Source of the DNA: Gammaproteobacteria bacterium
GTDB lineage: Bacteria > Pseudomonadota > Gammaproteobacteria > UBA4575
Assembly: GCA_011523795.1 (NCBI GenBank)
Contig: WTFY01000006.1
Coordinates: forward strand, 1 to 64,000
DNA length: 64,000 bases
Direction of reading: 5' to 3'
Shown here: positions 6,491 to 58,627 of the stretch, in pieces
How the letters are laid out: each line of letters opens with the position of its first letter
Numbering within the stretch: position 1 is the first letter of the stretch
The notes under the pieces: model-generated
Databases searched by the model: none
Told to the model about the DNA's origin: nothing
What the model saw: the letters and a program-made list of their open reading frames with translations, nothing else
Program-made: the position numbers and the translations under genes

Positions 6491-6492
6491 CC

Positions 6493-17112: not shown

Positions 17113-17121
17113 GGTCCGCCC

Positions 17122-17559
17122 ATGGTTCACGTGCAACGCAGTGCGATGCTCCCCTATACCACAGCGCAGATGTATCGGCTGGTCAATGATATCGAGTCTT
17201 ATTCGGAGTTCGTTCCCTGGTGTACCCGCAGCGAGATCAACTTCAAAACCGAACAGGTGATCGAAGCCACGCTGCATTTCTCCAAGGGTGCCCTGGGGGC
17301 AGAGATGACCACGCGCAATGAACTGGTCGAGGACTGCCGGGTCACCATGAACCTGGTGAAAGGTCCGTTCAGGCACCTGAAAGGTGTCTGGCAGTTTTAC
17401 GAACTCGATGGAAATCACTGCAGGGTGGAACTGGAGATCACGTTTGCATTTTCAAGCCGCGTGTACGAGTTTACGCTGGGACCGATCTTCCATTCCCTGG
17501 CCAACAGGATGATTACCGTCTTTCGGCAGCGGGCCGAGGACACCTATGGAAAGCGGTAG
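17122..17559 (+). CDS. ratA: RatA/Coq10-type START-domain protein
   Basis: A 145-residue SRPBCC (START-like) fold protein. The family pattern is visible in SAMLPYTTAQMYRLVNDIE, YSEFVPWCTRSEI and the C-terminal FHSLANRMITVFRQRAEDTY. In E. coli the protein was reported as a ribosome-association toxin; eukaryotic Coq10 relatives bind ubiquinone, so a quinone-related role is an alternative. rnfH starts within its last codons, so the two are translationally coupled, as in most gammaproteobacteria. Confidence 0.9.
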   Translation: MVHVQRSAMLPYTTAQMYRLVNDIESYSEFVPWCTRSEINFKTEQVIEATLHFSKGALGAEMTTRNELVEDCRVTMNLVKGPFRHLKGVWQFYELDGNHCRVELEITFAFSSRVYEFTLGPIFHSLANRMITVFRQRAEDTYGKR

Positions 17560-17833
17560 GTGGATTTCCGTTACGGTGTGCTATGCGCTGCCCGATCATC
17601 AGGAGGTGGTTCCCTTGACCGTCATGCCGCATACCACGGTGCTGCAGGCCATCGAGCAGTCGGGGATCCTGGAAAAGTATCCTGAAATCGAGGTGCGCGA
17701 AGGCAGTATTGGGATATTCGGTCATCCCGTTAGGCTGGACCGCCGGCTGAGACAGCATGACCGGGTAGAGATCTATCGCCCCCTGCATGAAAACCCGGTG
17801 GATGCGCGCAGGAAGCGTGCCGGGCAGGGCTGA
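17546..17833 (+). CDS. rnfH: RnfH family ubiquitin-like fold protein
   Basis: A 95-residue protein with the RnfH/YfjF pattern: ISVTVCYALPDHQ near the start, GIFGHPVRLDRRLRQHDRVEIYRPL near the end, and a basic C-terminus. Its biochemical role is unsettled; the family has a beta-grasp fold. It overlaps the ratA 3' end by 14 bases and is convergent with bamE. Confidence 0.9.
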   Translation: MESGRWISVTVCYALPDHQEVVPLTVMPHTTVLQAIEQSGILEKYPEIEVREGSIGIFGHPVRLDRRLRQHDRVEIYRPLHENPVDARRKRAGQG

Positions 17834-17884
17834 TGCGCCCCCCGGGAATTACGGTTCCTGAAGGCTTGTGCCGGGGGTCCGGGC

Positions 17885-18277
17885 TTACCGGTCCGTATCC
17901 TTTTCGTTCCCGGCTTCGTCCTGCTCCACAGGAGCCGTCTCGGCAGTCGGGATATTGTGCTTGATGATCTCGATGACCTCGTTGCGATCGAAGATGAGTG
18001 TCAGCTGGCTGCGCCGGGATTGCGCATGGCCCGGGTTCAGCATGTACAGGTAGTCCCAGCGATCGGGATGGAAGCTGTCGACGATCAGCGGTGTGCCCAG
18101 CAGGAAATGCACCTGCTCCTTGGTCATGCCCAGCCTGACCTGTTCAACGGCCTGCGCTTCCAGTACGTTGCCCTGCTGGATGTCGATCTTGTAGACTTTC
18201 AGCAGCTCGTTCCCGCACCCGCCCAGGGAAGCCACGAACAGCAGCATGCAAAGCAGGGTAAAGGGGCGGTGCTTCAT
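17885..18277 (-). CDS. bamE: Outer-membrane assembly lipoprotein BamE
   Basis: Small lipoprotein subunit of the BAM complex that inserts beta-barrel proteins into the outer membrane. The 130 residues start with a lipoprotein signal (lipobox LGGC). The SmpA/OmlA domain follows, with VEQVRLGMTKEQVHFLLGTP and WDYLYMLNPG. The C-terminus is acidic. The start overlaps the recN stop by four bases, and recN-bamE adjacency is conserved in gammaproteobacteria. Confidence 0.94.
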   Translation of the reverse strand: MKHRPFTLLCMLLFVASLGGCGNELLKVYKIDIQQGNVLEAQAVEQVRLGMTKEQVHFLLGTPLIVDSFHPDRWDYLYMLNPGHAQSRRSQLTLIFDRNEVIEIIKHNIPTAETAPVEQDEAGNEKDTDR

Positions 18278-37608: not shown

Positions 37609-37692
37609 ATGGCTCCGATGGCGGGTATCGATGTCATCAGGCCACGCCCTTGGTACCCGTTCTTCCCGTATCATGAACCTAGGTGAGTGTGG

Positions 37693-39402
37693 ATGAGCAA
37701 GTCCAGGTCATATGCCTGGTATGAGAAGCATGCCAGGGAGACCGCAGCTCTCTACGAGTCAGTGAGCGCGCAGGATATGCTGGGCTGGCTTCAGAATTTC
37801 ATGCCCGCCGTGGGTGCCCGTATCCTGGATGTTGGGGCAGGGAGTGGCAGGGATGCGGCTTGGTTGGCCAGGCGGGGATACCAGGTAGTGGCTGTCGAAC
37901 CCTCTCCTGCAATGCGAGTAGAAGCCGGGAAACGCCATGAAGGGCTGAACATACAATGGGAGGCAGAACAGCTTCCGGATCTGCCCAGGGCATCGGGCAG
38001 GGGCCCCTACGACCTGATCCTGCTGAGTGCGGTTTGGATGCACGTGGCCCAGGCAAAACGAAAGAGAGCGTTCAGGAAGCTTGTCAATCTGCTCGGGCCG
38101 GGCGGGACCCTTGCAATCACCCTGCGCCAGGGCCCGGAAATTCCCGAACGCGGTATCCATGAGGTAACTTCGGCAGAACTGGAAAACCTGGCGCATGATC
38201 ACGGGGCGCTCGTGGTGCATTGCGACGAAAACGTGGATCTGCTGGGAAGGGAGGATGTTTGCTGGACACGAATCGCGATACAGTTTCCGGATGATGGCGC
38301 CGGGACTTTACCGCTCCTGCGCCATATCATTCTCAAGCAAAACAAAAGCGCTACCCACAAGCTGGCTCTCTTGCGAACGCTATGCCGGATCGCGGAAGGC
38401 TCCGCAGGCATCGGGCGAATTAACGAGGACGGCACAGTAAGCATCCCGATGGGCTTGGTGGCCCTGACTTGGCTTCGCCTGTTCATGCCCTTGCTGGCGA
38501 GGCATTACCCGCAGCATCCGACGAATGTTGGAACCAGGGGTCTTGGGTTCGTAAAGCAGGCCTTCCTGAAGCTGCAGGGGCTTTCACACCTCGACCTGAG
38601 GATGGGTATGCGGTTTCAGGGAGCACAGGGCGCTGCATTGCATCAGGCGTTGAAGGATGCGGCGGCTAACATCAGGGCGATGCCGGTAAAATACATGACT
38701 TATCCCAATGGGGGCCCGATCCTGGAAGTAATGAAGACGGGCAGGCAGTATCGGCCGGGTACGATTCTGCTGAGCGAGGAGTACCTGTCTGGATTTGGTG
38801 AGATGCGGATTCCGCTGGACCTGTGGCAAACCCTGAGAAAGCACACGATATGGGTAGAGCCCGTAGTCGTGTCTGAGTGGGGTGAGATGATTCGAGAATA
38901 TGCGAAGGGCCAGGAGAGGGAACTGGAGGAATCCCAGATCAGGCAAGCCATGGTATGGGCGGAACCGGACCGTGATGTATCCGTCCCCAAGCGGCAGGCG
39001 ATGAAACTGCTGGATAAAAGGCAGTTGTTTTGCGTGTGGACCGGACAGCACCTGGGCAAAGCGTCTCTTCTGGATGTGGATCACTGCCTGCCATGGTCGG
39101 TGTGGTCCTGTGGAGACCTTTGGAACCTGATGCCGGCTCAACGCTCGGTGAACCAGAACAAGAAAAGAGACCTTTTGCCGAGTGATACCGTGATGGACAA
39201 TGCCGAGGAGAGAATTCTGGACTGGTGGGACAGGGCGTACTACCGAACGCCCTGGTTGCAGGAGCAGTTTCTCCTGGAGGCTTGTTCAAGCCTGCCGGGC
39301 ATACGGCCGGATGATAGTGCACCGGAGTCGGTATTCGAATCTGTCTGCCTGCAGCGTGCCAAGCTCAGACGGGATCAGCAAGCGCCTGAATGGGATGGGT
39401 GA
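37693..39402 (+). CDS. Methyltransferase-HNH endonuclease fusion protein
   Basis: A 569-residue protein with two recognisable modules. Residues ~1-200 are a class I SAM methyltransferase: motif I ILDVGAGSGRDAAWL with D46, then YDLILLSAVWMHV and LGPGGTLAITLRQG. It lacks the NPPY or PCQ motifs of DNA methyltransferases, so it looks like the small-molecule/protein type. Residues ~215-380 are helical and resemble the region preceding HNH domains in bacterial proteins (VSIPMGLVALTWLRLF). Residues ~445-490 are an HNH nuclease: FCVWTGQ, LDVDHCLPW with H464, LWNLMPAQRSVNQNKK. Start is the ATG at 37693; a GTG two codons earlier is possible. Probably a stand-alone nuclease effector of defence type; target unknown. 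Confidence 0.75.
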   Translation: MSKSRSYAWYEKHARETAALYESVSAQDMLGWLQNFMPAVGARILDVGAGSGRDAAWLARRGYQVVAVEPSPAMRVEAGKRHEGLNIQWEAEQLPDLPRASGRGPYDLILLSAVWMHVAQAKRKRAFRKLVNLLGPGGTLAITLRQGPEIPERGIHEVTSAELENLAHDHGALVVHCDENVDLLGREDVCWTRIAIQFPDDGAGTLPLLRHIILKQNKSATHKLALLRTLCRIAEGSAGIGRINEDGTVSIPMGLVALTWLRLFMPLLARHYPQHPTNVGTRGLGFVKQAFLKLQGLSHLDLRMGMRFQGAQGAALHQALKDAAANIRAMPVKYMTYPNGGPILEVMKTGRQYRPGTILLSEEYLSGFGEMRIPLDLWQTLRKHTIWVEPVVVSEWGEMIREYAKGQERELEESQIRQAMVWAEPDRDVSVPKRQAMKLLDKRQLFCVWTGQHLGKASLLDVDHCLPWSVWSCGDLWNLMPAQRSVNQNKKRDLLPSDTVMDNAEERILDWWDRAYYRTPWLQEQFLLEACSSLPGIRPDDSAPESVFESVCLQRAKLRRDQQAPEWDG

Positions 39403-43316: not shown

Positions 43317-43403
43317 GCCGATGTGGCGGAATTGGTAGACGCGCTAGCTTGAGGGGCTAGTGGGGGAAACCTCGTGCCGGTTCGAGTCCGGCCATCGGCA
43401 CCA
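43317..43403 (+). tRNA. tRNA-Leu (GAG)
   Basis: An 87-base tRNA with a seven-pair acceptor stem (GCCGATG/CATCGGC), encoded CCA at 401-403 of this kilobase, anticodon GAG at 43351-43353 in loop TTGAGGG, and the long variable arm expected of class II tRNA-Leu. In E. coli this tRNA lies directly after secG. Its 3' end abuts the island, consistent with a tRNA integration site. Confidence 0.97.
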
Positions 43404-43494: not shown

Positions 43495-43548
43495 GTCCGA
43501 AAGGGTTTATTGACATCCAGAAAAAAATGGCGGTACTTTTGGCGGTAT
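43495..43548 (+). repeat. Left-end repeats of the island
   Basis: Two elements. The first (43495-43518) is GTCCGAAAGGG then TTTATTGACATCC. The second (43529-43548) is GGCGGTACTTTTGGCGGTAT, itself a tandem of GGCGGTA. Both recur at the right end (55148-55172 and 55065-55084) in the opposite order. They resemble the short repeats that tyrosine-recombinase integrases bind near tRNA attachment sites. Confidence 0.6.
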
Positions 43549-43674: not shown

Positions 43675-43697
43675 GAGACACGATTTTGGGGGCGAGA

Positions 43698-45017
43698 GTG
43701 AACACGGAAAAAATAAGTTTAAGGACTAACTCAATCCAGAAACCCAGTACTTATACATTCATCGATTTATTTGCAGGCTGTGGAGGGCTGTCATTGGGTC
43801 TGATGAAAGGTGGTTGGGTGGGACTACTTGCCATAGAAAAAAATCGTGATGCATTTAAAACTCTCAGTCACAACTTAATAGAGAAGGAGAATAAGTCTCA
43901 GGACAAACCATATCTCCAGTGGCCAAATTGGTTAGAGAAAAAACCTTTTGAGATACGAAAATTTATCAAGGACTACCGCTGGCAACTTGATTCGTTGAGG
44001 GGGAAAGTTTGTCTCGTTGCTGGGGGACCTCCCTGCCAAGGATTTTCTCTCGCAGGAAAGCGTACAGGTAGGGACCGGAGAAATAATCTCTTCAAGCTAC
44101 AGTTAGAAATCGTTGATATTTTGAAACCCAAGTTAGTGTTAATGGAAAACGTACAAGGTATCAACGCGATTTTTGGAGGAAAAGAAATCGGTAAGAGAAG
44201 AAACCGGGGAAAACCACGCAAGAGTTATTCCACCAAGATTAGAGAAGCGCTAAGTAACCACGGCTACCTAGTACAACAAGAACTAATTAAAGCCTCAGAC
44301 TTTGGAGTGCCACAATATCGCCCTAGGTACTTTACTGTAGGTGTTCGAGAAGACCTATTTTCTGAAAGCCAAGTTCCAGATTTCTTCCAAATTCTCAGCG
44401 GAGTCAGGAGAAATTTTTTAACCAGTAAAAGATTACCCCTGAAACGTTCAGTTACTGTAGCTGAAGCAATCTCTGACTTGAGGTCTGAATTTGCAGAAAT
44501 TACAGAGTGTAGTGACCCTGATTCACCTTCAGGATTTAAAGAAATTGTATACAAGAAACCCAGCACTCAATACCAGAAACTCATGCACAAAGGCTTGAAT
44601 GGACACCAACCTAATAGTTTGCGCCTAGTGAATCATCGTCCAGATACGGTAAGCCGGTTCAAGGCGATCTTACGAACCTGCCAAAAAGGAGTTAGCGTGC
44701 CAGATTCGGAGCGGGTTAGGTTAGGAATTGGAAAGCAACTGATAGTCCCCCTATCTCCTGATTTACCATCACGTACTTTGACAACACTGCCGGATGACTT
44801 GCTTCACTACGCTGAACCCCGGGTCCATACCGTGCGAGAGAGTGCTAGGTTGCAGTCATTCCCGGATTGGTTCGAGTTTCATGGAAAATTCACTACAGGC
44901 GGCAATCGTCGTGCAAAGGATTGTCCAAGGTATACTCAGGTAGGAAACGCAGTTCCGCCGCTTTTGGCCGAAGCCATAGGCATTGCAATGAGGGAATTGC
45001 TCATTAAGAATGATTAA
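43698..45017 (+). CDS. C5-cytosine DNA methyltransferase
   Basis: Transfers a methyl group to carbon 5 of cytosine in a DNA target sequence. The GTG at 43698 was chosen because a GGGGGCGAGA stretch precedes it; a TTG four codons earlier is possible. The 439 residues contain all key motifs: I DLFAGCGG (23-30), IV GGPPCQGFS with catalytic C113, VI ENVQG (E150), VIII QYRPRYF, IX RTLTT and X YTQVGNAVPP. The region between VIII and IX sets specificity and cannot be read. Its A/T-rich codon use differs from both the host and the following genes. It is the first gene of the island cassette; 114 bases separate it from the ATPase gene. Confidence 0.95.
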   Translation: MNTEKISLRTNSIQKPSTYTFIDLFAGCGGLSLGLMKGGWVGLLAIEKNRDAFKTLSHNLIEKENKSQDKPYLQWPNWLEKKPFEIRKFIKDYRWQLDSLRGKVCLVAGGPPCQGFSLAGKRTGRDRRNNLFKLQLEIVDILKPKLVLMENVQGINAIFGGKEIGKRRNRGKPRKSYSTKIREALSNHGYLVQQELIKASDFGVPQYRPRYFTVGVREDLFSESQVPDFFQILSGVRRNFLTSKRLPLKRSVTVAEAISDLRSEFAEITECSDPDSPSGFKEIVYKKPSTQYQKLMHKGLNGHQPNSLRLVNHRPDTVSRFKAILRTCQKGVSVPDSERVRLGIGKQLIVPLSPDLPSRTLTTLPDDLLHYAEPRVHTVRESARLQSFPDWFEFHGKFTTGGNRRAKDCPRYTQVGNAVPPLLAEAIGIAMRELLIKND

Positions 45018-45131
45018 GCCCGCTTGGCATCACCGAGACAATCTATACGTACGAATGAATGTAAGAACCAAGGCTTTAGTAGGTATTTAAGCTCACGCAG
45101 TAGCTCGTCATCATTAGGGAATATACGGTTG

Positions 45132-47210
45132 ATGGATAAACAGAAGAGTCATAAATTCCCCGATGGACTTCTTAATTGGGCGGGGCATCGAGACGGTGGT
45201 GTCAAAAAGCCATTCTCTACCAGTTCGGGCAGACCTACTGGTGGCCTAGTAGAGACAAGTCTCACACAAAGATTAAGTGTCTGGGCCAACAACTTGTCTT
45301 CGGGACAAGAAGGTATGCCAGTAGCGATGTTCCTAGTAGGTGGGCCCGGTAACGGGAAAACAGATGCCATTGAGACTGCTATCCGACTTCTCGATACAGC
45401 TTTTGGTAAAAACGGACAGCTGCTAGATAGTTGCAGGTCCAAGTTCGATGTCGAACTACCCCCCCGTAAGATTGTTGTCGATTTGGCCGAGTTCGTTGAC
45501 GAGTCGAGCATGCTCCATAACCGAGAACTTGTCATCATACAAGATGCAACGGAGGTCGATCTTGGAAAACCTGGTAGCGCTCCCGAATCCCTGTTCTTAG
45601 ATGATGTTGAATCCCTTTTAATAACCGGCGAAAGGGATTGTCCGTTGTTTCTTTGTGGTATTAACCGCGGAATCCTCGCTCATGCAGCGCTCGTCGGCCA
45701 CACGGAAAACTATGATCCAGCTACGCTGGACTTTATTGACACACTCACCCGTTCGGCCACCTCTAGATCGGGTAAAGAAACCAAGGCGTGTTGGCCTCTT
45801 GATGGGTACGAATGGGCCGTGGCATGGCCGATGGATGTCGAGTCATTGGTAGATCACCCACATATGGGAGACGACGCCCCGACACCGATAGGGCAAATCC
45901 TAGAAAAAGCATTGGATTCTGTTACATGGACATCAGGTTGTAGTGCAGGTGACCTATGTCCTTTCCATACTAACAAATTGCTACTTGATGACATCCAGAC
46001 TCGGAAACAATTTTCTCGAATACTACATTTCTACGAGTTAGCTTCGGGCAAGCGATGGAATTTTCGTGATTTGTTCTCGTTGGTGTCACACGTGTTAGTG
46101 GGCCATGAATCCATGTTTATCGTTAACGATCAACGGGTGCCACCTTGTGAATGGGCGACGTACCATGCGAATAGAGCCCGTGGCACTGGCCCTGAGGCAA
46201 TCTTGTCTGCCTGGTCATTGGCATCGCGGTTGTATACACATGCGATGTTCCCGACATGGCCTAAGCTCGTCGATGTAGCAAAGAATACACGAGAGTTGAA
46301 AAGAAGTTACGCAAAGTTACCCCCTGGTTTTGACAAGTTTTTTCTGGAGATTGCGAATGACCGAGACTGGGAGAATACGGAGATTGGCTTATTACTAGGT
46401 AACGAGTTTTGCCTAGCGCTTGATCCCGCTAACACTCGTCGCGAGCTTGAGCTTCCGGGCGGATTAACCATAGGCGAAATTGAAGACTCGTACACTACGT
46501 CAATTCAGCGTGGCTTGGAACTTACCGGCGAGCATCTCAATAAGATTGAGCTTCTGTTAGTCGGGCTGCTCTCAACGGCGGACGAATCATGCGAACCAAA
46601 TGTTGTATCTCCGCTCATGTACTCCAAGGCTAAGGCAGTCCAGTGGCACTTGAGGTCTCTAGCTAGTCGTTTTGTTAAGCGTGGGATTGCGGGTGGTGCG
46701 GGTATTTGCCGTGACTACATGTTCCTCAAACGCTACCATGCTTTGCTCAATGGGAGTGGGGATAGCGTGCGTCGATTGAAAAAATCCTTTCAGCGCTTGC
46801 TTAGCAATAGCCCCGAGGGCTTTTCCATCTCGCTCAGCGCAACGTTCGGCCAGCCGTCGAATTTGAAATTAGGAGGAGCCTGCCTTTCAGGAGTCCGTCA
46901 GGCACCTGTAAAAGCCGAGCCCGTGGTAAATAACGAGTCCCGACCTCGGGAGATGCTACCGTATCTACTAGTAGACAAAGTGCCTGTGCCGATAACATTC
47001 CCACTATTCAAGGCATTGTCTGAGGTAGACGAGGGACTTATGACAGCGTCTCTTCCCGGAGAAATTTTTGCATTAGTGGATGGGACACGCAACTTGCTAG
47101 CTGGGCGACTTGTCCACAATCACGAGTGGCTTGAGGATGCCAGAGTTGTTATCGGTGAATGCAAACAAGTGCTTACTATCGAGGATGGGAAGGTGACATA
47201 CGCACAATGA
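45132..47210 (+). CDS. Island P-loop ATPase (cassette gene 2)
   Basis: A 692-residue protein with Walker A GGPGNGKT at residues 70-77. A likely Walker B/sensor region follows at LFLDDVESLL and PLFLCGINRGIL. A four-cysteine/histidine patch (CSAGDLCPFH) precedes YELASGKRWNFRDLFSLVSH, which has the look of an AAA-type lid. The start at ATG 45132 was preferred; an upstream TTG at 45024 would add 36 Ser/Arg-rich residues. Its stop overlaps the next ATG (ATGA). The size and position recall DptF of Dnd restriction modules, but I cannot confirm homology. Probably supplies ATP-dependent assembly or remodelling to the complex with genes 3 and 4. Confidence 0.75.
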   Translation: MDKQKSHKFPDGLLNWAGHRDGGVKKPFSTSSGRPTGGLVETSLTQRLSVWANNLSSGQEGMPVAMFLVGGPGNGKTDAIETAIRLLDTAFGKNGQLLDSCRSKFDVELPPRKIVVDLAEFVDESSMLHNRELVIIQDATEVDLGKPGSAPESLFLDDVESLLITGERDCPLFLCGINRGILAHAALVGHTENYDPATLDFIDTLTRSATSRSGKETKACWPLDGYEWAVAWPMDVESLVDHPHMGDDAPTPIGQILEKALDSVTWTSGCSAGDLCPFHTNKLLLDDIQTRKQFSRILHFYELASGKRWNFRDLFSLVSHVLVGHESMFIVNDQRVPPCEWATYHANRARGTGPEAILSAWSLASRLYTHAMFPTWPKLVDVAKNTRELKRSYAKLPPGFDKFFLEIANDRDWENTEIGLLLGNEFCLALDPANTRRELELPGGLTIGEIEDSYTTSIQRGLELTGEHLNKIELLLVGLLSTADESCEPNVVSPLMYSKAKAVQWHLRSLASRFVKRGIAGGAGICRDYMFLKRYHALLNGSGDSVRRLKKSFQRLLSNSPEGFSISLSATFGQPSNLKLGGACLSGVRQAPVKAEPVVNNESRPREMLPYLLVDKVPVPITFPLFKALSEVDEGLMTASLPGEIFALVDGTRNLLAGRLVHNHEWLEDARVVIGECKQVLTIEDGKVTYAQ

Positions 47211-48706
47211 ACGGACTGGAAAATTTTGAACGTGATCCTTTTGGCAAGCAAATGCATAAGGGTTACTCTGAATCTTTTCTGAACATGAGACCAGCACCGG
47301 AGTACGCCTCAGGTGAAGTAATACTGTCTTCACTTTACCGATCCGTAGGGTTTCCTAATATCAAAGAAAGCAAGGTTCCGGAATTAGGGTCGCGATTAAC
47401 AAAGAAGCTGGGTGTTGATGATGGCATACAGCATGTACTGGACCACGATACGTGGAAGGTTGTTTTACAAAAGACACTGGAGAGTCCCAAGCTACCTAGC
47501 CAATCAACAAAACGTTTCATGCTACTGTGCCCCGTGGTACCCGGGGTCGCGGCGTATTCCGGTTCTGCACGCATGTCTAAAAATTCTTGGAACCCAGGAA
47601 ACCTCGTGGGCCGCATGGTTAGGATGGGTAGTAACTCGAACGAGGGAGCCCGATCGATATGGGCTCAACTATTCAACTCCTTGTCTGTCGATAGCGACGA
47701 CGAGCCATGGGCTAACTTGCTTAAGGGTGAATTTCTCCGAGAGGAGGAAGAAAGCGAGGTCTGGAAGTTTAACCCGCTCAATGAAGTGCCGTACCTAGAA
47801 TCATGGAAATCGCCTGAGTTCCCATCTCCTGCAGGGAAATTTGTACATGATCTTGGCAAGGTGCTGGGGCTGAAACAGATTTTAACAAGACGTCAGTGGG
47901 TAAGTATCGTCGAATCACTCCTACGTTTAGCAAGCGTCTCCCATATCATGTGGCTTTGCAAAGTAAACGAGCAAGCGTTTAACTTGCTTCACGATGCCCT
48001 TAATGGTCAAAGCCCGGGTGATGTCAGCGAGGTACAAGAACGTCTTTTCGCGAAACACCCATCAACATGGTGCATCGGGCAACAAGTATTGCCAACAGTG
48101 CGCCGTCTTGCTCGTAACTATCTAGTTGCACGAGTCGGGATCAACTACTTGCTTTTCCTATCCGAGGCTAGAGGAATTTTGCCTGAAAGCTGGAGGCAAG
48201 GAGTAGGCACCCCGGTCTGGTTCCAAGAATTTGTATCACGCGTTTACAGCAACCGTGATGTACTCAATGCACATGATCCACTAAGAAAACATCAGCACTT
48301 AGTAGAGGATGACCCAAGAATATTGGCGTGCAAAAAAGGTATAGGCAAGAACATCGAGGAGTTCGCTAGGCACGTTCTAGGACACCGGCAGGCAGCCGAC
48401 GAGCACCTAGTTGTCTACGACCAAGGGTACTTTGCTATCAAAAATGGTGACTACCAGTCGGCACCATGGGTGTTATCGCCCGGATCAGTTGCCATCATGA
48501 TGCTTTGCCATTGCTGCGCAGCTGGTAGCAAAGCCCCACGCACGGTGGAGCACCTTTGTGAACACCTCAACTGGTACGGGATCGGCGTAAAGCCCAACGA
48601 TTTGGTGGTGAGTGAACTTGGACAGACATTGCGAAACCTTGGCCTAGTGCTTGATAGCCCCGATGCAGAAGGAGGCATGGTCATTCTAGACCCGTTTAGA
48701 GCATGA
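47207..48706 (+). CDS. Island protein of unknown family (cassette gene 3)
   Basis: A 499-residue protein starting MNGLENFERDPFGKQ. The start at 47207 overlaps the upstream stop by four bases and the 3' end overlaps the next ATG the same way, so it is made in step with its neighbours. No catalytic motif, membrane segment or signal peptide is visible. The sequence is rich in Trp and Leu and appears helical. The last ~60 residues (NDLVVSELGQTLRNLGLVLDS) could be a winged helix. In position it is comparable to DptG of Dnd systems; this is inference from order and size. Confidence 0.65.
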   Translation: MNGLENFERDPFGKQMHKGYSESFLNMRPAPEYASGEVILSSLYRSVGFPNIKESKVPELGSRLTKKLGVDDGIQHVLDHDTWKVVLQKTLESPKLPSQSTKRFMLLCPVVPGVAAYSGSARMSKNSWNPGNLVGRMVRMGSNSNEGARSIWAQLFNSLSVDSDDEPWANLLKGEFLREEEESEVWKFNPLNEVPYLESWKSPEFPSPAGKFVHDLGKVLGLKQILTRRQWVSIVESLLRLASVSHIMWLCKVNEQAFNLLHDALNGQSPGDVSEVQERLFAKHPSTWCIGQQVLPTVRRLARNYLVARVGINYLLFLSEARGILPESWRQGVGTPVWFQEFVSRVYSNRDVLNAHDPLRKHQHLVEDDPRILACKKGIGKNIEEFARHVLGHRQAADEHLVVYDQGYFAIKNGDYQSAPWVLSPGSVAIMMLCHCCAAGSKAPRTVEHLCEHLNWYGIGVKPNDLVVSELGQTLRNLGLVLDSPDAEGGMVILDPFRA

Positions 48707-51700
48707 GCAAGTTTCTCGATTGGGTGTCCAACCACGTTAGGGCTCATATCGCATCTGAGTTGCACACCTCGGGTGATGGCAATTTCCGCTCAGTATTTGC
48801 AGGACTCCCCGAGAACATGCTCGATGACCTCTTGGAGGGTCTAGTGAATGATGGCTTCATGCAAGTCAGTATAAACGGTAATGACGAGAAAGTTATCGTT
48901 CTATTACCAACCAAGACAGAAAAAAACCCGGATGGAATCAGCTCAGGACGTTGCAACCAAGGTTATCTGGTTTCAGTTAGGAATAGCCATGTAAAGCACT
49001 TGTTGACTTTACAACCACCGGGTGAAACACAAATAAAGTCCATCAGGTCGACCGTGACATGGTTCGGCGTGTCCCCTGCTGCGTTGGCAGACGCAAGTGT
49101 CTGGTGTGAAGACACGTTTGTCAGGGAAATTCTACGACACGCAACGAGGAGCCGGGGTATTGCAAATGACGAGGTGCCTAGCTGGCTCTCGGCAGTCATG
49201 TTGCGACTTGCTGTACTCGACGAAGTTAACGGCTTTACAGATACCAAGTGGACGGTTATGCGGCGCTTATTTGACCAACCAGCCCCCAACGTCGAGAACG
49301 GTAATTTCCTGGTGATGTTTGCAGCTTGCGGGCTAGTCAGGCCATCAGACGGGGAAGGAGACCTCGAAGCGCTTCCCAAGCTAGTAGAAACCATTGGCGA
49401 ATATTTGGAACGTGAAGGTCTCGTGAATGGATTTGCCAGCCTGAGGCACTGTGCCCAACAATTATCCGGCGATGACTACGATGTCGAAACAATCATAGAC
49501 GCTCTTAACGAGTTCGAAAAACACGTGCTCAAGTGTGCAAAATCTGCGCCAGGGTTTGCCTCTTTTGCACTGCGATTTTATTGCCCTTACGAGGAATGCC
49601 ATTTTGATGGAAGCATACCGGATTGGTGGTACAACTTGGACACAAACACGTGGCAATCTCTCTTAGATTGCAAACCCGCGCCGCAATCATGCATCAAGGT
49701 CAAGGTCGTAAATGGTATTGGGCAAGAAGATTTGAAAGGGCTACCTGCTGTGACCAATAACGGCATCAGATTCGAGATCACGGTAACCTCGGGTGCGTCT
49801 CGACCCAGAATAGAGGTCACCCGCAGAGTAGGGCGCCGAAATGCCGAGACAATAGGAACTATCGATCCAGGTTTTGGAAATTCCAGTTTTCATGATGAAG
49901 AGGTGCCCTCCCATAACCTTCCCCTTACCTACACATTTGAGCCATCTGACCCGGGTTGCAAGCCTGCAAGTACCAGAGTCATCTCGCTTCAAGCCTATGA
50001 GCCTGGGTTTGTAGCTAGTAGCCGTGGAGCAGAGAAAGTTACCCTGCCAAAGCTGGCAAAATCGAGTGGTAACACACGGGTTTACGAGTGCGACTTAGAG
50101 CTCGACGGACAAGGCGTCCACCAGATGGATCTACTTGCATGTACTGGGTTCCAAATCGATGGCGTGGTTCATGGCTACGGAGTCACGACAGATGACGACG
50201 ATGAGGATGAGACGATTGTAAATCCTGCCAAGATCACTGAGGGTCAGTGGAATTTCTACGCAGAGACAGATGAGGAATGCCGCTACGAGTTTAACTACAC
50301 GTTGCTGAACGGGGAGAGTGCCAGAGCAAGGTTAAGCTTGAGGGCGGGTGACGTTGAACCTGCCGGGACAAGCAGCGAATTTCACCGGTTGGTTCTTGAA
50401 GTTAGCAGTGGACGGTCAGCCCGCGTTACCTTGAAGGAAAGCCAGTTGATATACAGTTTGGAGCGCTGGATGCTGGATGACAAGCTCTCCTACCGACCAC
50501 TGCTATTGTCACCCAGCTTAGGGAATAGTAGGGAAAAGCCTGACTGGGACGCGAATCCGCTCTGGTCTAGCCATACACCGGTCTACGACCCTAGACCAGA
50601 TGCTTCGGTGCTTACTCCGCCTGATAGCCTGGTGAAAACCCGTCACAAAATTGCCCAAATGATCCGTGAAGAACAAAAAACTGGGATTTGCGAACGTGCA
50701 CCTATGGGGAAGCTTTACATGCACGACGAGAAATTCCATGCAAGGGTAGACCAGTACGTCACTAACTACATTGAATGGTTGAAAGACGATTACGAAAACG
50801 CTGCACTGTTTGATACCGTACTTGCTTGTTTTTACCAGCCCAGAAGCGAGGTGCTCCAGCCGGTACCTGTAGCCGTCCTGCTATCCCCTTTGCACCCTTT
50901 GAGGCTCGGTTGGCAAGTTGCCGCACAATACCTGCTTGTCGATGCACAAGACAGGGGGGTTAAGTGCCCCGGGGCAAGTGTCATAGATTCCAGCTGCGTA
51001 CCTGACTCAATGGCACTGCCGGTGGTAAATGCTAAAGGAGATACAGGGTTCGTTCCTTTCGTTTCTATTCCTAGTAGTTCAGATTACTGGGGGGTCCTAT
51101 GGAACTCTAACGAGCTCGACAAGCTAGGCAGCAGCGAATCAAATCGCTTATTTAGCGAAGATCTCGGCATAACGATCTCAGGGCTATCTGCTGGTTTTTC
51201 TGGCGCACAGGTTAAGCGAGCGATGCAGGAAGTTTTCGATGTTAGCGCTGGGCGCTCGCGCCTGCGAGTTCGTCTGCTAAGTGATGTAGAAGGAAAAACC
51301 GATACGCACGAGGGTATCAACGACTGGGCTTTAGCACACCTTGGTAACAAGGACCCTTGGCAGGTCGCAGCTCGGACCAGCATTGACGTTATCGATGCAA
51401 GGAGAGATGAGCAAAGGCCAATTGAGCCCTTCGTCGCAAACCTAACCACGAGGACCCAGGGAGCAGTGCGCTGGATAGTTGATAACAAAGATGATGCACA
51501 GCACGTTGACCTATCCCTCATTTCCCACTTGAAACGGATTACACCTGAAACCTGTACGATGAGTGCGCATTCTTCTACCAGCCTTGGTTCTCTTACTAGA
51601 GAACGCACATGCTACCCTTTAGCGGCTACAGGTGGGCACATGCTAGGCGAATCTAGAACCTTGCCAAGCAATCTAACCCCAGCCACTCTCTCGAAAAAAG

Positions 51701-54213
51701 TAGACAGCTTGGCGTTGAATCTCGAGTTGATAGATTCTTGCTTCGAGTCAGCAATGGCTAGCAAGTGTTCATGTGATGGAATTTCCTTTGCCCCTAACTT
51801 GCCAATCTTGGAACGTGGCCTAGAGGCCTCGGCGTACTGCGCAGTTTCTTCCACTGATGTCGATTCCTCAGCGTTTTTACGAACTCAACATGGCCCCTAC
51901 CTGTGGGATTACGACATACCCTCGTACGCGGGAAAGGCTCAAGAGAATGCAGGGTATTACTTGCTGGCAAAACATTCCACAGAGATAGAGAAACAAGTTG
52001 AACGTGCCCTAACCTTGTTGGGAGGCGTAAACTTTGAAAACGAAATAACGCGGCAATTGCTCGCGGAAATTTCTCAAAGGGGATTACCCTCTTTAAAAGA
52101 ACTTGCATCCGGAGGATCTTCCGCGACTGGTGAACTCGGCTTGCTTGTAGCTTGCCGGTTACTCCAAGGGCCACCGGGTTGTGAAAGTGATATTCCCAAG
52201 TTACTCCCATTAATCGATGAAGAAAGACGGGTAATTAACCTCTTGCTGCCGGTAGACCCATTTGCAGCACAGTTCGACGATTTGCGAAAAGCGCTTAAGA
52301 CGGATAATTTTCAGCGTCCTGACCTGCTGGTCGCGAGCATGCGTTTCGACGAAGAGAACAACCCGGTGGCCTTGCACCTGACACCCATCGAGGTCAAGGC
52401 ACGAACAGGTAACATGAACGTGTCTGCGCGTCGGTCGGCACTTGCCCAGGCTAGTAGTTTCGCGCTTTTCTTGACTCGCCTGCTGATCAAGGCCAAGGAG
52501 GAACCGGTATGGATGTTGGCGGTGACCAAGTTCATGGCAACCTGGTTTAGCTTCTGTTTCCGTGTACACGCCGGGATGGTGCCCAGTGGATTCCGAGACC
52601 AGTTCATGGAGTGCAACTCGGCAGTAAACCAAGCTTTGCTCAGGGGACAGCTTGAATCCAGCGTGGATAAACGCGGGCGGCTAGTGGTAATCCATGACGA
52701 GGCAACAAGTCATCCATCGGACCTTGATGGCGACGGGTTCGAAGAAACCATCTCGTTGAAGCCAGGTGATGCCCTAGGCGTCATAACATCCCCGGCGAGC
52801 AGCAGCGTACTACGTGGGATAATAGAACAAATGGGGACCTGGGACTTGCCTGTTCCTACGACCCGCAGAACGGACGTCGCGACGGGCTGGGTCGGACCCA
52901 GGGACACGCTACGGGAGCCTGATAATCATGGACAGCCCGTTACCGATCCACCGGGTATAAGAGAGCCTGACAAGATCGTCCGGCCACCAATTGATAAGCC
53001 TGTTGAAAACTTGGTACCAGCCACACAAGAAGCGGCGACAGGTTCTGGCGAGGAAATGTTGAAGGGATCCACAGGTATTCGCTTCGACGTCGGAAAGACC
53101 CTAGACTCGTTCCACGAGGAATCGCGTGAATTCTTCCCTGGGAACACGCAGCTCACCCAGCTGAACATCGGTGTCGTAGGAAATCTAGGAACAGGTAAAA
53201 CGCAGTTAACAAAAGCCCTCATTTACCAACTGTCACGTAAGAATCATCAAAATTTTGAACAAAAACCATTTTTCCTAATATTTGATTACAAACGCGATTA
53301 CAGCGACTCCGAGTTTGTCCAGACACTCGGCGCAAAGGTCATCAAGCCGCGGAACATACCTATTAACATTTTTGACACTTCCACGGTCCCCGGCGAAAGC
53401 CCTCCATGGTTAGAACGCTCTAATTTCCTGTGCGATGTTCTTGCCAAAATTTACGCTGGTATTGGGCCGGTTCAGCGAGAGAACCTCAAACAATCGGTAA
53501 AAAATGCTTACCGAGTAGTCAGTTCAAATAGCAAAACGGCGCCAACGTTACCGGATGTCTTTGCCGAGTACCGCCAACTCGTAAACAAACCAGACGCCGT
53601 TTTCTCGATCTTGAGTGATATGGTGGATATGGAACTGTTCGAAGAGAATCCCAAGCACCTTTTGCCTTTCTCTAGATATCTGGAAGGTGTTGTGGTCGTG
53701 GACCTTGCAAGCCTCGGGCAAAACGACAAGGCCAAGAGCATGCTTGTTGTCCTGTTTCTCAACCTGTTCTACGAGAACATGCTTCGATTGAAGAAGTTTC
53801 CTTTTGTCGGCAAGGATCCCCAACTCCGTACCATAAACGGGTTCCTGCTAGTTGATGAGGCAGACAACATCATGCGTTACCAGTTCCCTGTTTTACAAAA
53901 CGTGTTGTTACAGAGTAGGGAATTCGGTGTAGGCGTATTGCTTGCATCCCAGTACCTGTCTCACTTTAGACCCGATGCCCATACGAATTACAGGGAGCCC
54001 TTGTTGACTTGGTTCATCCACCAGGTACCAACCGTCACTGTGAACGAGTTAAAAGGGATAGGGTTAGCCGAGGTGGATAATGGCACCGTGTCAAGGATTC
54101 AGGAACTAGGCCAACATGAATGTCTGTACAAAAGTCTGGGCATCAACGGGGAGTTTATCCGGGGAACCCCATATTACGTGTTGAAAGACGGAGAGCAAGA
54201 CAATACTAATTGA
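48703..54213 (+). CDS. Giant 1836-residue ATPase with PD-(D/E)XK-like motif (cassette gene 4)
   Basis: The largest island protein. The N-terminal ~1200 residues show no recognised domain; there is an acidic insert near DDDDEDETI and a conserved-looking SPLHPLRLGWQ. A restriction-nuclease-like signature follows: D1207 in RPDLLVA, 23 residues later E1230 and K1232 in PIEVKAR. A Pro/Thr/Glu-rich linker (~1410-1450) leads to a C-terminal ATPase with Walker A GNLGTGKT (G1493-T1500), Walker B FLLVDE (D1718, E1719) and VLLQSREFGVGVLLASQ after it, resembling HerA/FtsK-type translocases. The architecture suggests a motor-driven nuclease. The length and C-terminal motor resemble DptH and the large ATP-binding protein of MADS. 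The next gene starts at the stop (TTGA). Confidence 0.78.
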   Translation: MSKFLDWVSNHVRAHIASELHTSGDGNFRSVFAGLPENMLDDLLEGLVNDGFMQVSINGNDEKVIVLLPTKTEKNPDGISSGRCNQGYLVSVRNSHVKHLLTLQPPGETQIKSIRSTVTWFGVSPAALADASVWCEDTFVREILRHATRSRGIANDEVPSWLSAVMLRLAVLDEVNGFTDTKWTVMRRLFDQPAPNVENGNFLVMFAACGLVRPSDGEGDLEALPKLVETIGEYLEREGLVNGFASLRHCAQQLSGDDYDVETIIDALNEFEKHVLKCAKSAPGFASFALRFYCPYEECHFDGSIPDWWYNLDTNTWQSLLDCKPAPQSCIKVKVVNGIGQEDLKGLPAVTNNGIRFEITVTSGASRPRIEVTRRVGRRNAETIGTIDPGFGNSSFHDEEVPSHNLPLTYTFEPSDPGCKPASTRVISLQAYEPGFVASSRGAEKVTLPKLAKSSGNTRVYECDLELDGQGVHQMDLLACTGFQIDGVVHGYGVTTDDDDEDETIVNPAKITEGQWNFYAETDEECRYEFNYTLLNGESARARLSLRAGDVEPAGTSSEFHRLVLEVSSGRSARVTLKESQLIYSLERWMLDDKLSYRPLLLSPSLGNSREKPDWDANPLWSSHTPVYDPRPDASVLTPPDSLVKTRHKIAQMIREEQKTGICERAPMGKLYMHDEKFHARVDQYVTNYIEWLKDDYENAALFDTVLACFYQPRSEVLQPVPVAVLLSPLHPLRLGWQVAAQYLLVDAQDRGVKCPGASVIDSSCVPDSMALPVVNAKGDTGFVPFVSIPSSSDYWGVLWNSNELDKLGSSESNRLFSEDLGITISGLSAGFSGAQVKRAMQEVFDVSAGRSRLRVRLLSDVEGKTDTHEGINDWALAHLGNKDPWQVAARTSIDVIDARRDEQRPIEPFVANLTTRTQGAVRWIVDNKDDAQHVDLSLISHLKRITPETCTMSAHSSTSLGSLTRERTCYPLAATGGHMLGESRTLPSNLTPATLSKKVDSLALNLELIDSCFESAMASKCSCDGISFAPNLPILERGLEASAYCAVSSTDVDSSAFLRTQHGPYLWDYDIPSYAGKAQENAGYYLLAKHSTEIEKQVERALTLLGGVNFENEITRQLLAEISQRGLPSLKELASGGSSATGELGLLVACRLLQGPPGCESDIPKLLPLIDEERRVINLLLPVDPFAAQFDDLRKALKTDNFQRPDLLVASMRFDEENNPVALHLTPIEVKARTGNMNVSARRSALAQASSFALFLTRLLIKAKEEPVWMLAVTKFMATWFSFCFRVHAGMVPSGFRDQFMECNSAVNQALLRGQLESSVDKRGRLVVIHDEATSHPSDLDGDGFEETISLKPGDALGVITSPASSSVLRGIIEQMGTWDLPVPTTRRTDVATGWVGPRDTLREPDNHGQPVTDPPGIREPDKIVRPPIDKPVENLVPATQEAATGSGEEMLKGSTGIRFDVGKTLDSFHEESREFFPGNTQLTQLNIGVVGNLGTGKTQLTKALIYQLSRKNHQNFEQKPFFLIFDYKRDYSDSEFVQTLGAKVIKPRNIPINIFDTSTVPGESPPWLERSNFLCDVLAKIYAGIGPVQRENLKQSVKNAYRVVSSNSKTAPTLPDVFAEYRQLVNKPDAVFSILSDMVDMELFEENPKHLLPFSRYLEGVVVVDLASLGQNDKAKSMLVVLFLNLFYENMLRLKKFPFVGKDPQLRTINGFLLVDEADNIMRYQFPVLQNVLLQSREFGVGVLLASQYLSHFRPDAHTNYREPLLTWFIHQVPTVTVNELKGIGLAEVDNGTVSRIQELGQHECLYKSLGINGEFIRGTPYYVLKDGEQDNTN

Positions 54214-54983
54214 TTGGTTGTAGTACTTTCATGCATGCGACTAGAGTGAATCCCTCGCAAACAAGTCGCGGTGCTATAATAATCAAGTTACACCTAGACG
54301 TGGAACCAAGCGAAAACCATTTGAATATCTCTAAAGACGACATCTCCTTGTTCCAGAAACTAGTTCTAGGGTGGGCAGGCCAGCACGGGAGAAGTTTCCC
54401 GTGGAGACGAGCGAGGGAAAGCCATTACCGCGTTGTTGTAACTGAACTGTTGTTACAAAGGACCAAGGCAGAAACTGTTCGTAATTACTACGGAGTTTTC
54501 TTTTCCCAGTTCCCTAACTGGAAAGCACTCGCACAAGCTCCCAAGACCGAGATCGGCAATGCCCTTAAGCCTCTAGGACTTTGGCAACGCAAGGCACCCG
54601 TGTTGAAACAACTCGCTAATGAAATGGTAGCCCGGAACGGGCGGTTCCCACAGAGACGCGAGCAGATAGATTCATTGTCTGGTGTAGGGCAGTACATCGG
54701 AAACGCAATCGAACTACTATGCCAACATCGATCTAAGCCATTACTCGATGCAAGTATGGCCAGAGTGCTTGAGCGTTACTTTGGTCCTAGGATGCTCGTG
54801 GACATCCGTCATGACTCGTACTTGCAAGCTTTATCGCACCACGTGGTTGATCACGACCAAGCCAGAGAAATAAACTGGGCGATATTGGACCTTGGTGCAC
54901 TGGTATGTAGAAATAGGAGTCCGTCTTGTGGTGAGTGTAAACTACGCATGACGTGCAAGACGGGTCAAGCAACCACCGTGTAG
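54210..54983 (+). CDS. HhH-GPD DNA glycosylase resembling thymine-DNA glycosylase MIG (cassette gene 5)
   Basis: A 257-residue EndoIII/MutY-fold glycosylase. Key elements: FPWRRARESHYRVVVTELLLQRT (helical core; quoted part FPWRRARESHY), the helix-hairpin-helix LSGVGQYIGNA with Y162, the catalytic Asp D180 in LLDASMARVLERYFG, and a C-terminal [4Fe-4S] loop C233-X6-C240-X2-C243-X5-C249. EndoIII has Lys and MutY has Ser where Y162 lies. Tyr at that place and the D-A-(N/S)...RYFG pattern are those of MIG, the G:T mismatch glycosylase coded next to a C5-methyltransferase in Methanothermobacter. Hence a repair role against 5-methylcytosine deamination. Start TTG at 54210 couples it to gene 4; ATG 54231 is the alternative. 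Confidence 0.82.
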   Translation: MIGCSTFMHATRVNPSQTSRGAIIIKLHLDVEPSENHLNISKDDISLFQKLVLGWAGQHGRSFPWRRARESHYRVVVTELLLQRTKAETVRNYYGVFFSQFPNWKALAQAPKTEIGNALKPLGLWQRKAPVLKQLANEMVARNGRFPQRREQIDSLSGVGQYIGNAIELLCQHRSKPLLDASMARVLERYFGPRMLVDIRHDSYLQALSHHVVDHDQAREINWAILDLGALVCRNRSPSCGECKLRMTCKTGQATTV

Positions 54984-55064
54984 TCAAATAGTCGCGTTCC
55001 CACGACCAGAATCAGAACCTCTTACAAGCGGGTGTTCGAACTTTGAAGATGTATATGTGATTTT

Positions 55065-55172
55065 GTCGGTACTTTTGTCGGTATAGCCAAAAATAAAAAA
55101 CTAAAAAACTCATATATAACAATAATATAGCTCTTAAGTTTAAGTCTGTCCGCAAAAGGTTCATTGACACCC
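55065..55172 (+). repeat. Right-end repeats of the island
   Basis: GTCGGTACTTTTGTCGGTAT (55065-55084) matches the left-end element at 18 of 20 positions. GTCCGCAAAAGG followed by TTCATTGACACCC (55148-55172) matches the other left-end element. The region from 54984 to 55234 is A/T-rich and otherwise without genes. Confidence 0.6.
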
Positions 55173-56263: not shown

Positions 56264-58627
56264 GTGGAAAATCTCGATGAACTGAAGCAAGAGATCAAGA
56301 TACTGCGCCAGAGCATATCCGGGCTAAGTTCAGCCATACTGCGTATCAGTGCGAGCCTTGAAGAGACCACTGTTCTGCACGAGGTGGTCGACAGTGCCCG
56401 TACGCTGACTAATGCCCGTTACGGCATGATCACGACCATCAATGAAGATGGACAGGTTCAGGACTTCATCACCTCCGGCCTCACACCGGAAGAGCACCAG
56501 CAGTTTGTCAATTGGCCGGACGGACCGCGACTGTTCGAACACTTCCGCGATCTTGCGTCACCTCTGAGGGTGTCTGATATGCCCGCCTTTATCCGTTCAC
56601 TCGGCTATTCCTTAGACCACCTGGTGTGCCCTCAGACGTTTCAGGGCATGCCGATGTGCCACCAAGGCGAGCATGTCGGAAATTTTTATCTTGGCGACAA
56701 GGAGAGTGGACAGGAGTTCAACGACAAAGATGAAGAGATTCTCATACTGTTTGCTTCGCAGGCGGCAACGGCCATTGCCAATGCGCGGACACACCGGAAG
56801 GAACAGCAAATGCGTGCGAACCTCGAGACCCTGATCGACACCTCTCCGGTCGGAGTCGTGGTCTTCGATGTCCCAACCTTAAAGCCCATGTCTTTCAATC
56901 AGGAGGCAAGACGGATTGTTGAGGATCTGCGAATACCAGGTTACCCCATAGAGCAGTTGCAGGAATTTATCACCGTCACACGTGCCGACGGACGCGAGAT
57001 TGCCCTCGACGAGTTTGTGCTTGCGCGGGAACTGAACACCAGCGGGATAGTGCGCGCTGAAGAGGTCGTGTTCTCCATCCCGGATGGGCGAAATGTCAAA
57101 ACGCTGATCAATGCCACACCGGTCCATGGCGAGGATGGTACGACCACATCGGTGATCATCACCATGCAGGACCTGGCACCACTGGAGGAACTTGAACGTC
57201 AGCGAGCCGAGTTTTTGAGCATGGTGAGTCATGAGTTACGGACACCGCTCACTTCCATCAAGGGCTCGACGGCCTCCGTGCTAGGTGCAGGGTCGCCACT
57301 TCCTCAGGCCGAGATGCGGCAACTCTTCCACATCATCGACCGGCAGGCCGACCATATGCGGGGTCTCATCAGTGATCTATTGGATGCAGGCAGTATCCAG
57401 GCCGGTACGTTGATGGTTGAACCCGAGCCTTCAGAAGTTGCTGATCTGGTGGACCGGGCAAGAAATACATTCATAAGTAGTGGTGGCCGACACACCCTCC
57501 ACATAGATCTCCCACCCGATCTGCCTCGTGTAATGGCTGATCGGCAACGCATCGTCCAGGTCCTAAGCAACCTTTTTTCCAATGCTGCCAAGCACTCTCC
57601 CGAGTCGTCACCTATCCAGGTCAGCGCGGTACTCGATGGCGTGCACGTTACGATTTCTGTTTCAGATAAAGGCCGAGGTATCCCGTCCGATCGGTTGCCT
57701 TACCTGTTCAGCAAGCATGCCGATGTAGCAGGTCGCGATGGCGAACCCAGTGCCGTGAGAACTGGCTTGGGTCTGGCGATCTGCAAAGGACTGGTCGAGG
57801 CACACGGGGGGCGTATCCGGGCAGAGAGTGGAGGCACAGGCCAAGGTGCACTGTTTACCTTTACCATTCCAATAGTAGAGGAGGCCAGCGATGGTGTATC
57901 AACGGTCAGACACCAGGCAGGTACGCGCCTGCAGGAAGAAGATGAGAATCTCCAACGTATTCTGGTAGTGGACGACGACCCTCAGATACTACGCTATGTA
58001 AGAGATGCACTTTCTGCGGCGGGCTACGCCCCGCTTGTGACGGGCGATTCAGCGGATCTTTCCCATCTTATAAAAACAGAGAAGCCCCAACTGGTCCTGC
58101 TGGACCTGCTGCTACCCGAACGGGATGGCATCGAGTTGATGGAAACTGTTCCTGAACTTGGCAACATACCGGTCATTTTCATCTCCGGATACGGTCGGGA
58201 CGAGACGATCGCGAAGGCTCTGGGGGCAGGTGCTGTCGACTACATCGTCAAGCCTTTCTCACCAACAGAACTCACGGCAAGGGTCTCTGCAGTCTTGCGC
58301 AGGCAGCACAAGCCCGAGCCCTTCCAACTGGGGGATTTAGTCATCCACTATGAGCAACGCCAAGCGACTGTGGCAGGTAGCCTGCTGGAGTTGACGGCCA
58401 CTGAGTTCAATTTGCTCAGCATACTTTCCCTTAATGCAGGACATGTCATGAGTTACGAATCTTTACTGCATCAGGTATGGCGCGGTCGCAAGACAAGTGA
58501 CCCGGAGGTAGTGCGTGCTTTCGTAAAAAAACTGCGTCACAAACTGGGTGATGATGCATCCAGTCCAACCTATATTGCTACAGTACGCGGGATCGGCTAC
58601 CGCATGGTCCTACCGGTTGAGGAGTAA
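56264..58627 (+). CDS. Hybrid histidine kinase fused to an OmpR-type response regulator
   Basis: A 787-residue cytoplasmic sensor that also carries its own DNA-binding output. Order: short coiled coil (~1-25), GAF domain (~25-180; YGMITTINEDGQ), PAS-like domain (~190-310), HisKA with phospho-His H323 in SHELRTPLTS, HATPase with NLFSNAAKHSP and GLGLAICKGLVEAHGG, then a receiver domain with D614 in LVLLDLLLPERDG, and a C-terminal winged helix (~690-785; LTATEFNLLSIL, YIATVRGIGYRM). No transmembrane segment is seen. The GTG start has GGAGGG upstream. A kinase, receiver and promoter-binding domain in one chain is uncommon. The target genes are unknown; no partner regulator is adjacent. Confidence 0.9.
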   Translation: MENLDELKQEIKILRQSISGLSSAILRISASLEETTVLHEVVDSARTLTNARYGMITTINEDGQVQDFITSGLTPEEHQQFVNWPDGPRLFEHFRDLASPLRVSDMPAFIRSLGYSLDHLVCPQTFQGMPMCHQGEHVGNFYLGDKESGQEFNDKDEEILILFASQAATAIANARTHRKEQQMRANLETLIDTSPVGVVVFDVPTLKPMSFNQEARRIVEDLRIPGYPIEQLQEFITVTRADGREIALDEFVLARELNTSGIVRAEEVVFSIPDGRNVKTLINATPVHGEDGTTTSVIITMQDLAPLEELERQRAEFLSMVSHELRTPLTSIKGSTASVLGAGSPLPQAEMRQLFHIIDRQADHMRGLISDLLDAGSIQAGTLMVEPEPSEVADLVDRARNTFISSGGRHTLHIDLPPDLPRVMADRQRIVQVLSNLFSNAAKHSPESSPIQVSAVLDGVHVTISVSDKGRGIPSDRLPYLFSKHADVAGRDGEPSAVRTGLGLAICKGLVEAHGGRIRAESGGTGQGALFTFTIPIVEEASDGVSTVRHQAGTRLQEEDENLQRILVVDDDPQILRYVRDALSAAGYAPLVTGDSADLSHLIKTEKPQLVLLDLLLPERDGIELMETVPELGNIPVIFISGYGRDETIAKALGAGAVDYIVKPFSPTELTARVSAVLRRQHKPEPFQLGDLVIHYEQRQATVAGSLLELTATEFNLLSILSLNAGHVMSYESLLHQVWRGRKTSDPEVVRAFVKKLRHKLGDDASSPTYIATVRGIGYRMVLPVEE

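Follow-up and report, generated by a model that had tools for sequence, protein, structure and literature searches.

Known Systems Related to the FGH Module

Phosphorothioate (PT) modification is the known partner of both DndFGH and SspFGH, and the way in which such complexes discriminate self from non-self DNA is debated. DndFGH (DptFGH) forms a 2:2:1 complex which nicks DNA in a translocation-coupled manner, and PT at its sites represses its ATPase (PMC11662687). SspFGH damages DNA without its mark and is harmful to cells lacking the mark (PMC8092258). According to Rakesh, Aravind and Krishnan (2024, PMC10853773), DndFGH lacks an inbuilt modification module and often occurs without any modification module at all; Vsr is absent from the main text of that study.

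The cassette described in this work joins a module of this kind to a C5-cytosine DNA methyltransferase (C5 MTase) and to a gene with a probable function in T:G mismatch repair. With DndABCDE–DndFGH it shares the F-G-H gene order, an H protein homologous in both nuclease and HerA motor, and the fold of G; unlike that system, whose phosphorothioate mark is made by DndA–E, it has a putative 5-methylcytosine (5mC) mark relying on one MTase, and it includes the T:G repair gene. SspABCD–SspFGH has the same gene order, a related H and an F whose profiles match the present family, whereas here SspB is absent, G has no detectable sequence similarity and the mark would be a base methylation. Stand-alone DndFGH loci likewise have no Dnd modification genes and combine a predicted nuclease with a HerA/FtsK motor (PMC10853773), but in the present cassette a C5 MTase is built in. 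Type II restriction–modification (R-M) systems with a Vsr or MIG-type (1kea) gene also pair a C5 MTase with a T:G mismatch repair enzyme; their attacker, however, is a single restriction endonuclease, in contrast to the large translocase-type F-G-H module found here. No description of a C5 MTase–FGH–Vsr pairing was found in the open-access literature, with most subscription papers outside the search, and the claim of a first-pass annotation of this DNA that no known system has this composition agrees with the literature searched. Relatives of these proteins may figure in the supplementary lists of PMC10853773.

Gene Cassette and Likely Insertion Site

The window (the whole stretch of 64,000 nucleotides that was analysed) carries five open reading frames at 43698–54983, all on the + strand, which encode in this order the C5 MTase, F, G, H and an HhH-GPD glycosylase. 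F/G, G/H and H/glycosylase are joined by 4-base overlaps (ATGA at 47207–47210, ATGA at 48703–48706 and TTGA at 54210–54213, respectively), and the spacing between MTase and F amounts to 6 bp from TTG 45024 or ~114 bp from ATG 45132. The first-pass annotation had treated the five codirectional genes as one unit, which is confirmed by the open reading frames, by the overlaps and by an order kept in dozens of genomes. A promoter search at the cassette gave nothing beyond chance.

The left flank of the cassette is formed by a tRNA-Leu (gag) gene (43317–43403, + strand, found with ARAGORN), the likely insertion site. A repeat search in the window revealed a 21-base direct repeat with one copy on each side of the cassette, TGGCGGTACTTTTGGCGGTAT at 43528–43548 (+), a possible attachment or arm site, and TGTCGGTACTTTTGTCGGTAT at 55064–55084 (+). 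The copies differ at two positions and are the sole two matches in the whole window, where shuffled sequence leads to an expectation of none. No integrase was seen between the two repeats, and a duplicated tRNA 3′-end that could act as attachment site was looked for and not found. The cassette has a G+C content of 44–52%, against ~60% for the window's left half. In four congeners, the same tRNA-Leu is preceded by the gene found here but has other DNA to its right, which marks the site as variable and makes acquisition of the cassette probable.

Two neighbouring genes outside the cassette deserve mention. Upstream of the tRNA, a single open reading frame (37687–39402) combines a SAM methyltransferase domain with an HNH nuclease motif, and it is kept at this position in one congener (L144). 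On the other side, at 56264–58627, GAF, histidine kinase, receiver and DNA-binding output domains are found on one polypeptide.

The F, G and H Proteins

Together, these three proteins form one branch of the DndFGH/SspFGH superfamily, as H is DndH-like and F SspF-like by profile, and the model of G has the DndG fold. The first-pass annotation had supposed a three-protein module of an undescribed kind; the module belongs instead to the group of DndFGH/DptFGH and SspFGH, the former being one of the comparators it had itself named.

The 1836-residue H protein (48703–54213, + strand) is a nuclease-translocase of the DndH/DptH type (PADLOC DndH, E 1.7e-63). It matches the solved C-terminal domain of DptH (PDB 7es4) with E 8.9e-66, and its profile aligns with four DptH proteins over ~1000 columns (E 1.1e-55); the match to the H of SspFGH has E 6.6e-7. 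The PD-(D/E)XK signature and HerA/FtsK-like ATPase ascribed to it earlier are both present. The nuclease motif, RPD(1207)...E(1230)VK(1232), is encoded at 52315–52404 (+), and the residues of its triad, D1207, E1230 and K1232, are unchanged in all 67 homologues. The motor comprises residues 1455–1827 (53065–54183, +) and shares 31% identity with DptH over 359 columns (E 5.6e-50), with the Walker A Lys1499 present in 65 of the 67 homologues.

Other systems with similar domains were considered. MADS, which the first-pass annotation had listed among its comparators, also combines methylation with a HerA-like ATPase, but the match is confined to the ATPase domain of H (mad8, E 3.5e-12 in PADLOC), with no further MADS proteins in the operon. 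BREX and DISARM readings were likewise rejected, as matches to PADLOC models of other systems were limited to the MTase or the ATPase domain.

G (47207–48706, + strand, 499 residues) is a DndG-type protein and the probable DNA-binding subunit. Sequence relatives outside its own family were found neither in Pfam, NCBIfam and PADLOC nor by a PDB sequence search and hhalign. Its AlphaFold model (pLDDT 91.6), compared with the DndG crystal structure 7exx, gave a VIA-align Z of 15.5 over 365 residues, the next hit being SspB at 4.9, and a Foldseek E of 9.6e-5. As modelled, G has the DndG fold.

F (45132–47210, + strand) is a P-loop NTPase of the SspF/DndF type. Its reading frame is open from TTG 45024 (45024–47210), but the protein probably starts at ATG 45132, since residues 1–40 align with nothing and are modelled at a pLDDT of ~30. 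The Walker A motif GGPGNGKT is encoded at 45339–45362. N214, which ends a predicted strand, and D174 are invariant across 68–69 homologues, and in our reading they bring to mind the atypical Walker B of DndF (PMC10853773). For the F of the window itself there is no direct match, PADLOC giving none for F or G; its homologues match PADLOC SspF (best E 9.1e-11). In hhalign comparisons, the family profile aligned with SspF (E 8.9e-10) as well as the F of another, third lineage of FGH (E 2.7e-10), mismatched controls staying above E 0.05. The comparison with DptF gave E 4e-4 to 2e-3 at low probability, a weak direct link that falls short of reliable detection by sequence. Canonical searches for DptF and DptG in 229 and 398 genomes yielded too few examples to build deep profiles. 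The profiles show a relation of F to DptF through intermediate families only. The model of F reached a top Z of 8.3 in the PDB, level with many AAA+ proteins, and showed no clear fold; for this reason, the assignment relies on sequence profiles. In the comparison with DptF, DptG and DptH that the first-pass annotation had suggested, H matches by sequence and G by fold, with a weak direct connection of F to DptF.

The C5 Methyltransferase and the Census of Related Loci

The predicted self-marking enzyme, a C5 MTase (PF00145, E 6.5e-49), is encoded at 43698–45017 (+) from a GTG start, with an in-frame TTG at 43686 also present. Motifs I, IV, VI, VIII and X are all intact (FAGCGG, PCQG, ENV, QYRPR and GNAVP), in keeping with the earlier description of the enzyme as complete. 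The window thus links a complete C5 MTase to the FGH nuclease module, the composition expected of an R-M system.

A search with the G profile identified 65 loci in the genome collection and a single locus among viral contigs, and plasmid records supplied four more; a Mariprofundus genome was first found through F and then again as L059. The hosts comprise Alpha-, Beta- and Gammaproteobacteria, Planctomycetota, Verrucomicrobiota, Gemmatimonadota, Bacteroidota and others. Counts of neighbouring genes refer to 61 loci, the window included, which have at least 2.5 kb of upstream and at least 1 kb of downstream DNA, some of them being near duplicates (e.g., L017 and L019). A C5 MTase lies within 3.5 kb of FGH in 60 of these 61 flanked loci. 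As G or F, and not the MTase, served to retrieve the loci, this link does not stem from the search itself. Wherever a locus has each gene in single copy, which applies to 67 loci, F, G and H are contiguous in this order. As the gene order is kept in dozens of genomes, a chance association is excluded, and the co-occurrence predicted for the cassette proved very strong for MTase and FGH, the HhH-GPD gene being present in five of the 61 loci.

The one flanked locus without an adjacent MTase, L049, comes from a genome which has C5 MTases, one of them on the same contig. Immediately after its H gene there is an HNH endonuclease gene (17018–18247), whose family is found near seven loci, and a defence-type reverse transcriptase is encoded upstream (4524–6521). 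Two further families are each found near seven FGH loci, namely a histidine-kinase-like ATPase (L027, 18565–20967) and a weakly response-regulator-like protein (L048, 20194–21174).

Markers of PT modification were also sought in the host genomes. DndC exceeded the cut-off in one of 48 and SspB in one of 48, so that phosphorothioate is not the usual mark; neither DndC nor SspB was found in the genome of the window.

The MTase and the FGH genes do not share one history throughout. Pairwise identities correlate with r 0.98–0.99 among F, G and H, whereas the value for F against the MTase is 0.65. L023 and L034 encode H proteins that are ~91% identical and MTases that are 34% identical. Apparent MTase swaps are seen in L023, L042 and L065, where the incoming enzyme is again a C5 MTase. 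A distant locus of a separate SspFGH-type lineage, L111 (8671–19325), encodes an SspH-like H (hhalign E 3.8e-41), a C5 MTase on the opposite strand and Vsr. Since the swaps bring in C5 MTases and the distant L111 has one as well, FGH appears to have been paired with 5mC, or its pairing renewed, more than once.

Three damaged loci are informative on the dependence of the parts on each other. In L015, the MTase gene is split at about codon 34 by a 1268-bp insertion (5380–6647) with inverted ends TGACGTGACCCC, which resembles an IS, and FGH is whole downstream. In L018, the MTase is frameshifted at an A9 run (6960–7009), possibly by phase variation or an assembly error, and F, G and H are whole. 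A second C5 MTase was found in neither the L015 nor the L018 genome. The retention of FGH beside a broken MTase in both speaks against a strict lethality of unrestrained FGH. The explanation may be silent FGH in these hosts, an assembly error behind the frameshift of L018 or tolerance of the lost mark. Conversely, F, G and H of L073 (5999–16961) are broken into many frames, with the MTase and Vsr whole; this decay of FGH alone is the asymmetry expected if solely the attack part is dispensable.

The Probable Repair Slot

The fifth gene of the cassette (54210–54983, + strand) encodes a protein with the HhH-GPD fold, an Fe–S motif (C-X6-C-X2-C-X5-C) and a catalytic Asp, as in the MIG-type enzyme. 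This G-T mismatch repair enzyme, 1kea, is its best match in the PDB (E 4e-32), followed by MutY (2.5e-27). MutY identity was rejected, as the equivalog score was 151.9 against a cut-off of 286.5, and the protein ends after the Fe–S motif, without the C-terminal domain that recognizes 8-oxoG. All five HhH members have a Tyr at the GVGQY position, matching the Tyr of 1kea. A Tyr at this position goes with thymine glycosylases, while EndoIII has a catalytic Lys where 1kea-type enzymes have Tyr. By its motifs and relatives, the protein is a probable T:G mismatch thymine-DNA glycosylase.

A repair gene occurs in 50 of the 61 flanked loci, with Vsr in 45 and HhH-GPD in five, usually in the same slot; in the remaining 11, neither was detected. 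The identity of Vsr was confirmed with PF03852 for two loci. In L065, L033, L060 and L073, Vsr adjoins the MTase instead of H, a position that points to the repair of deaminated 5mC. With Vsr sharing its slot and 1kea as the closest solved relative, the fifth gene most likely serves the repair of mutations from deaminated 5mC and is not a weapon. In Vsr and the MIG-type glycosylase, two unrelated enzymes apparently fill one repair job.

Proposed Mechanism and Alternatives

The cassette is likely to be a mobile defence of the R-M type in which 5mC-marked self DNA is spared and unmarked DNA is attacked by a translocating nuclease; the first-pass annotation had proposed a restriction system of this sort, and it is the best reading of the data. 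The C5 MTase, judged by its family and motifs, would place 5mC on a target sequence of the host genome. F, G and H, by analogy to the homologous DndFGH and SspFGH, would act as one complex in which G binds DNA along with the N-terminal regions of H, whose HerA/FtsK motor translocates and whose PD-(D/E)XK domain nicks the DNA. Methylation at the target would restrain FGH, just as PT represses the DndFGH ATPase, so that unmarked phage or plasmid DNA would be damaged and self DNA left intact. The glycosylase, in the manner of the Vsr that replaces it in sister loci, would excise T from T:G mismatches arising by 5mC deamination and thereby limit the mutation cost of the mark. It is conceivable, although doubtful, that FGH reads 5mC itself, largely whatever the sequence context, and can for this reason pair with MTases of different specificity; this would explain how ~91% identical FGH modules come with 34% identical MTases in L023 and L034.

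The more frequent swapping of the MTase compared with F, G and H and the intact FGH of L015 and L018 would also suit a stand-alone system that counters invaders upon signals such as nucleotides, following the trigger model of PMC10853773, in which case the MTase would serve another purpose, e.g., protection from other restriction enzymes. DndFGH does often occur without a modification module (PMC10853773). Such independence is nevertheless unlikely given a C5 MTase in 60 of 61 loci, swaps that again install C5 MTases and the presence of one beside the distant FGH of L111. The near-constant retention of the MTase could also reflect a mark-sensing mode, in which the 5mC of self DNA would serve as activator of FGH against invaders, much as PT does for SspE or DndI, and mark-activated phosphorothioate defences are indeed known (PMC11662687). 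However, the studied type of FGH is repressed by its mark, not activated (PMC11662687, PMC8092258), and L073 has kept MTase and Vsr whole despite its decayed FGH, which makes this mode very unlikely.

The attack could also be sought in the HhH-GPD protein, as a restriction glycosylase which excises bases from unmarked DNA and thus takes part in restriction. Base-excision restriction enzymes are known, going by an excerpt of PMC10273834, there is a 4-base overlap between the gene and H, and PADLOC labels a relative of the protein as a Type II nicking endonuclease. This role is highly improbable, since a repair nuclease, Vsr, mostly holds the same slot, 11 loci have neither gene, and the best structural relative is a G-T mismatch enzyme with the same Tyr. 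With respect to the preferred reading, a mark-sparing R-M-type defence, a widespread FGH branch whose putative mark depends on a single gene and is easily mapped makes the self/non-self question directly testable, and the natural MTase swaps raise the question of which is recognized by FGH, the sequence or the methyl group.

Variants of the Module Proteins

Several of the loci examined depart from the domain organization described above. In L013 (7611–9989) and L063 (7586–9985), F has an additional N-terminal domain similar to a portion of HNH-type restriction proteins, which in L063 matches PADLOC PDLC04132 with E 1.5e-8. Another FGH lineage is represented by L110 (6820–17851), L112 (5923–17323) and L114 (6752–17945), whose F proteins of ~1380–1410 residues have the DndF/SspF-like core at the C-terminal end. 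On Vibrio plasmids with conjugation genes, a DndH-like motor protein is encoded immediately after mobI (L083, 10111–13047; L087, 10288–13299).
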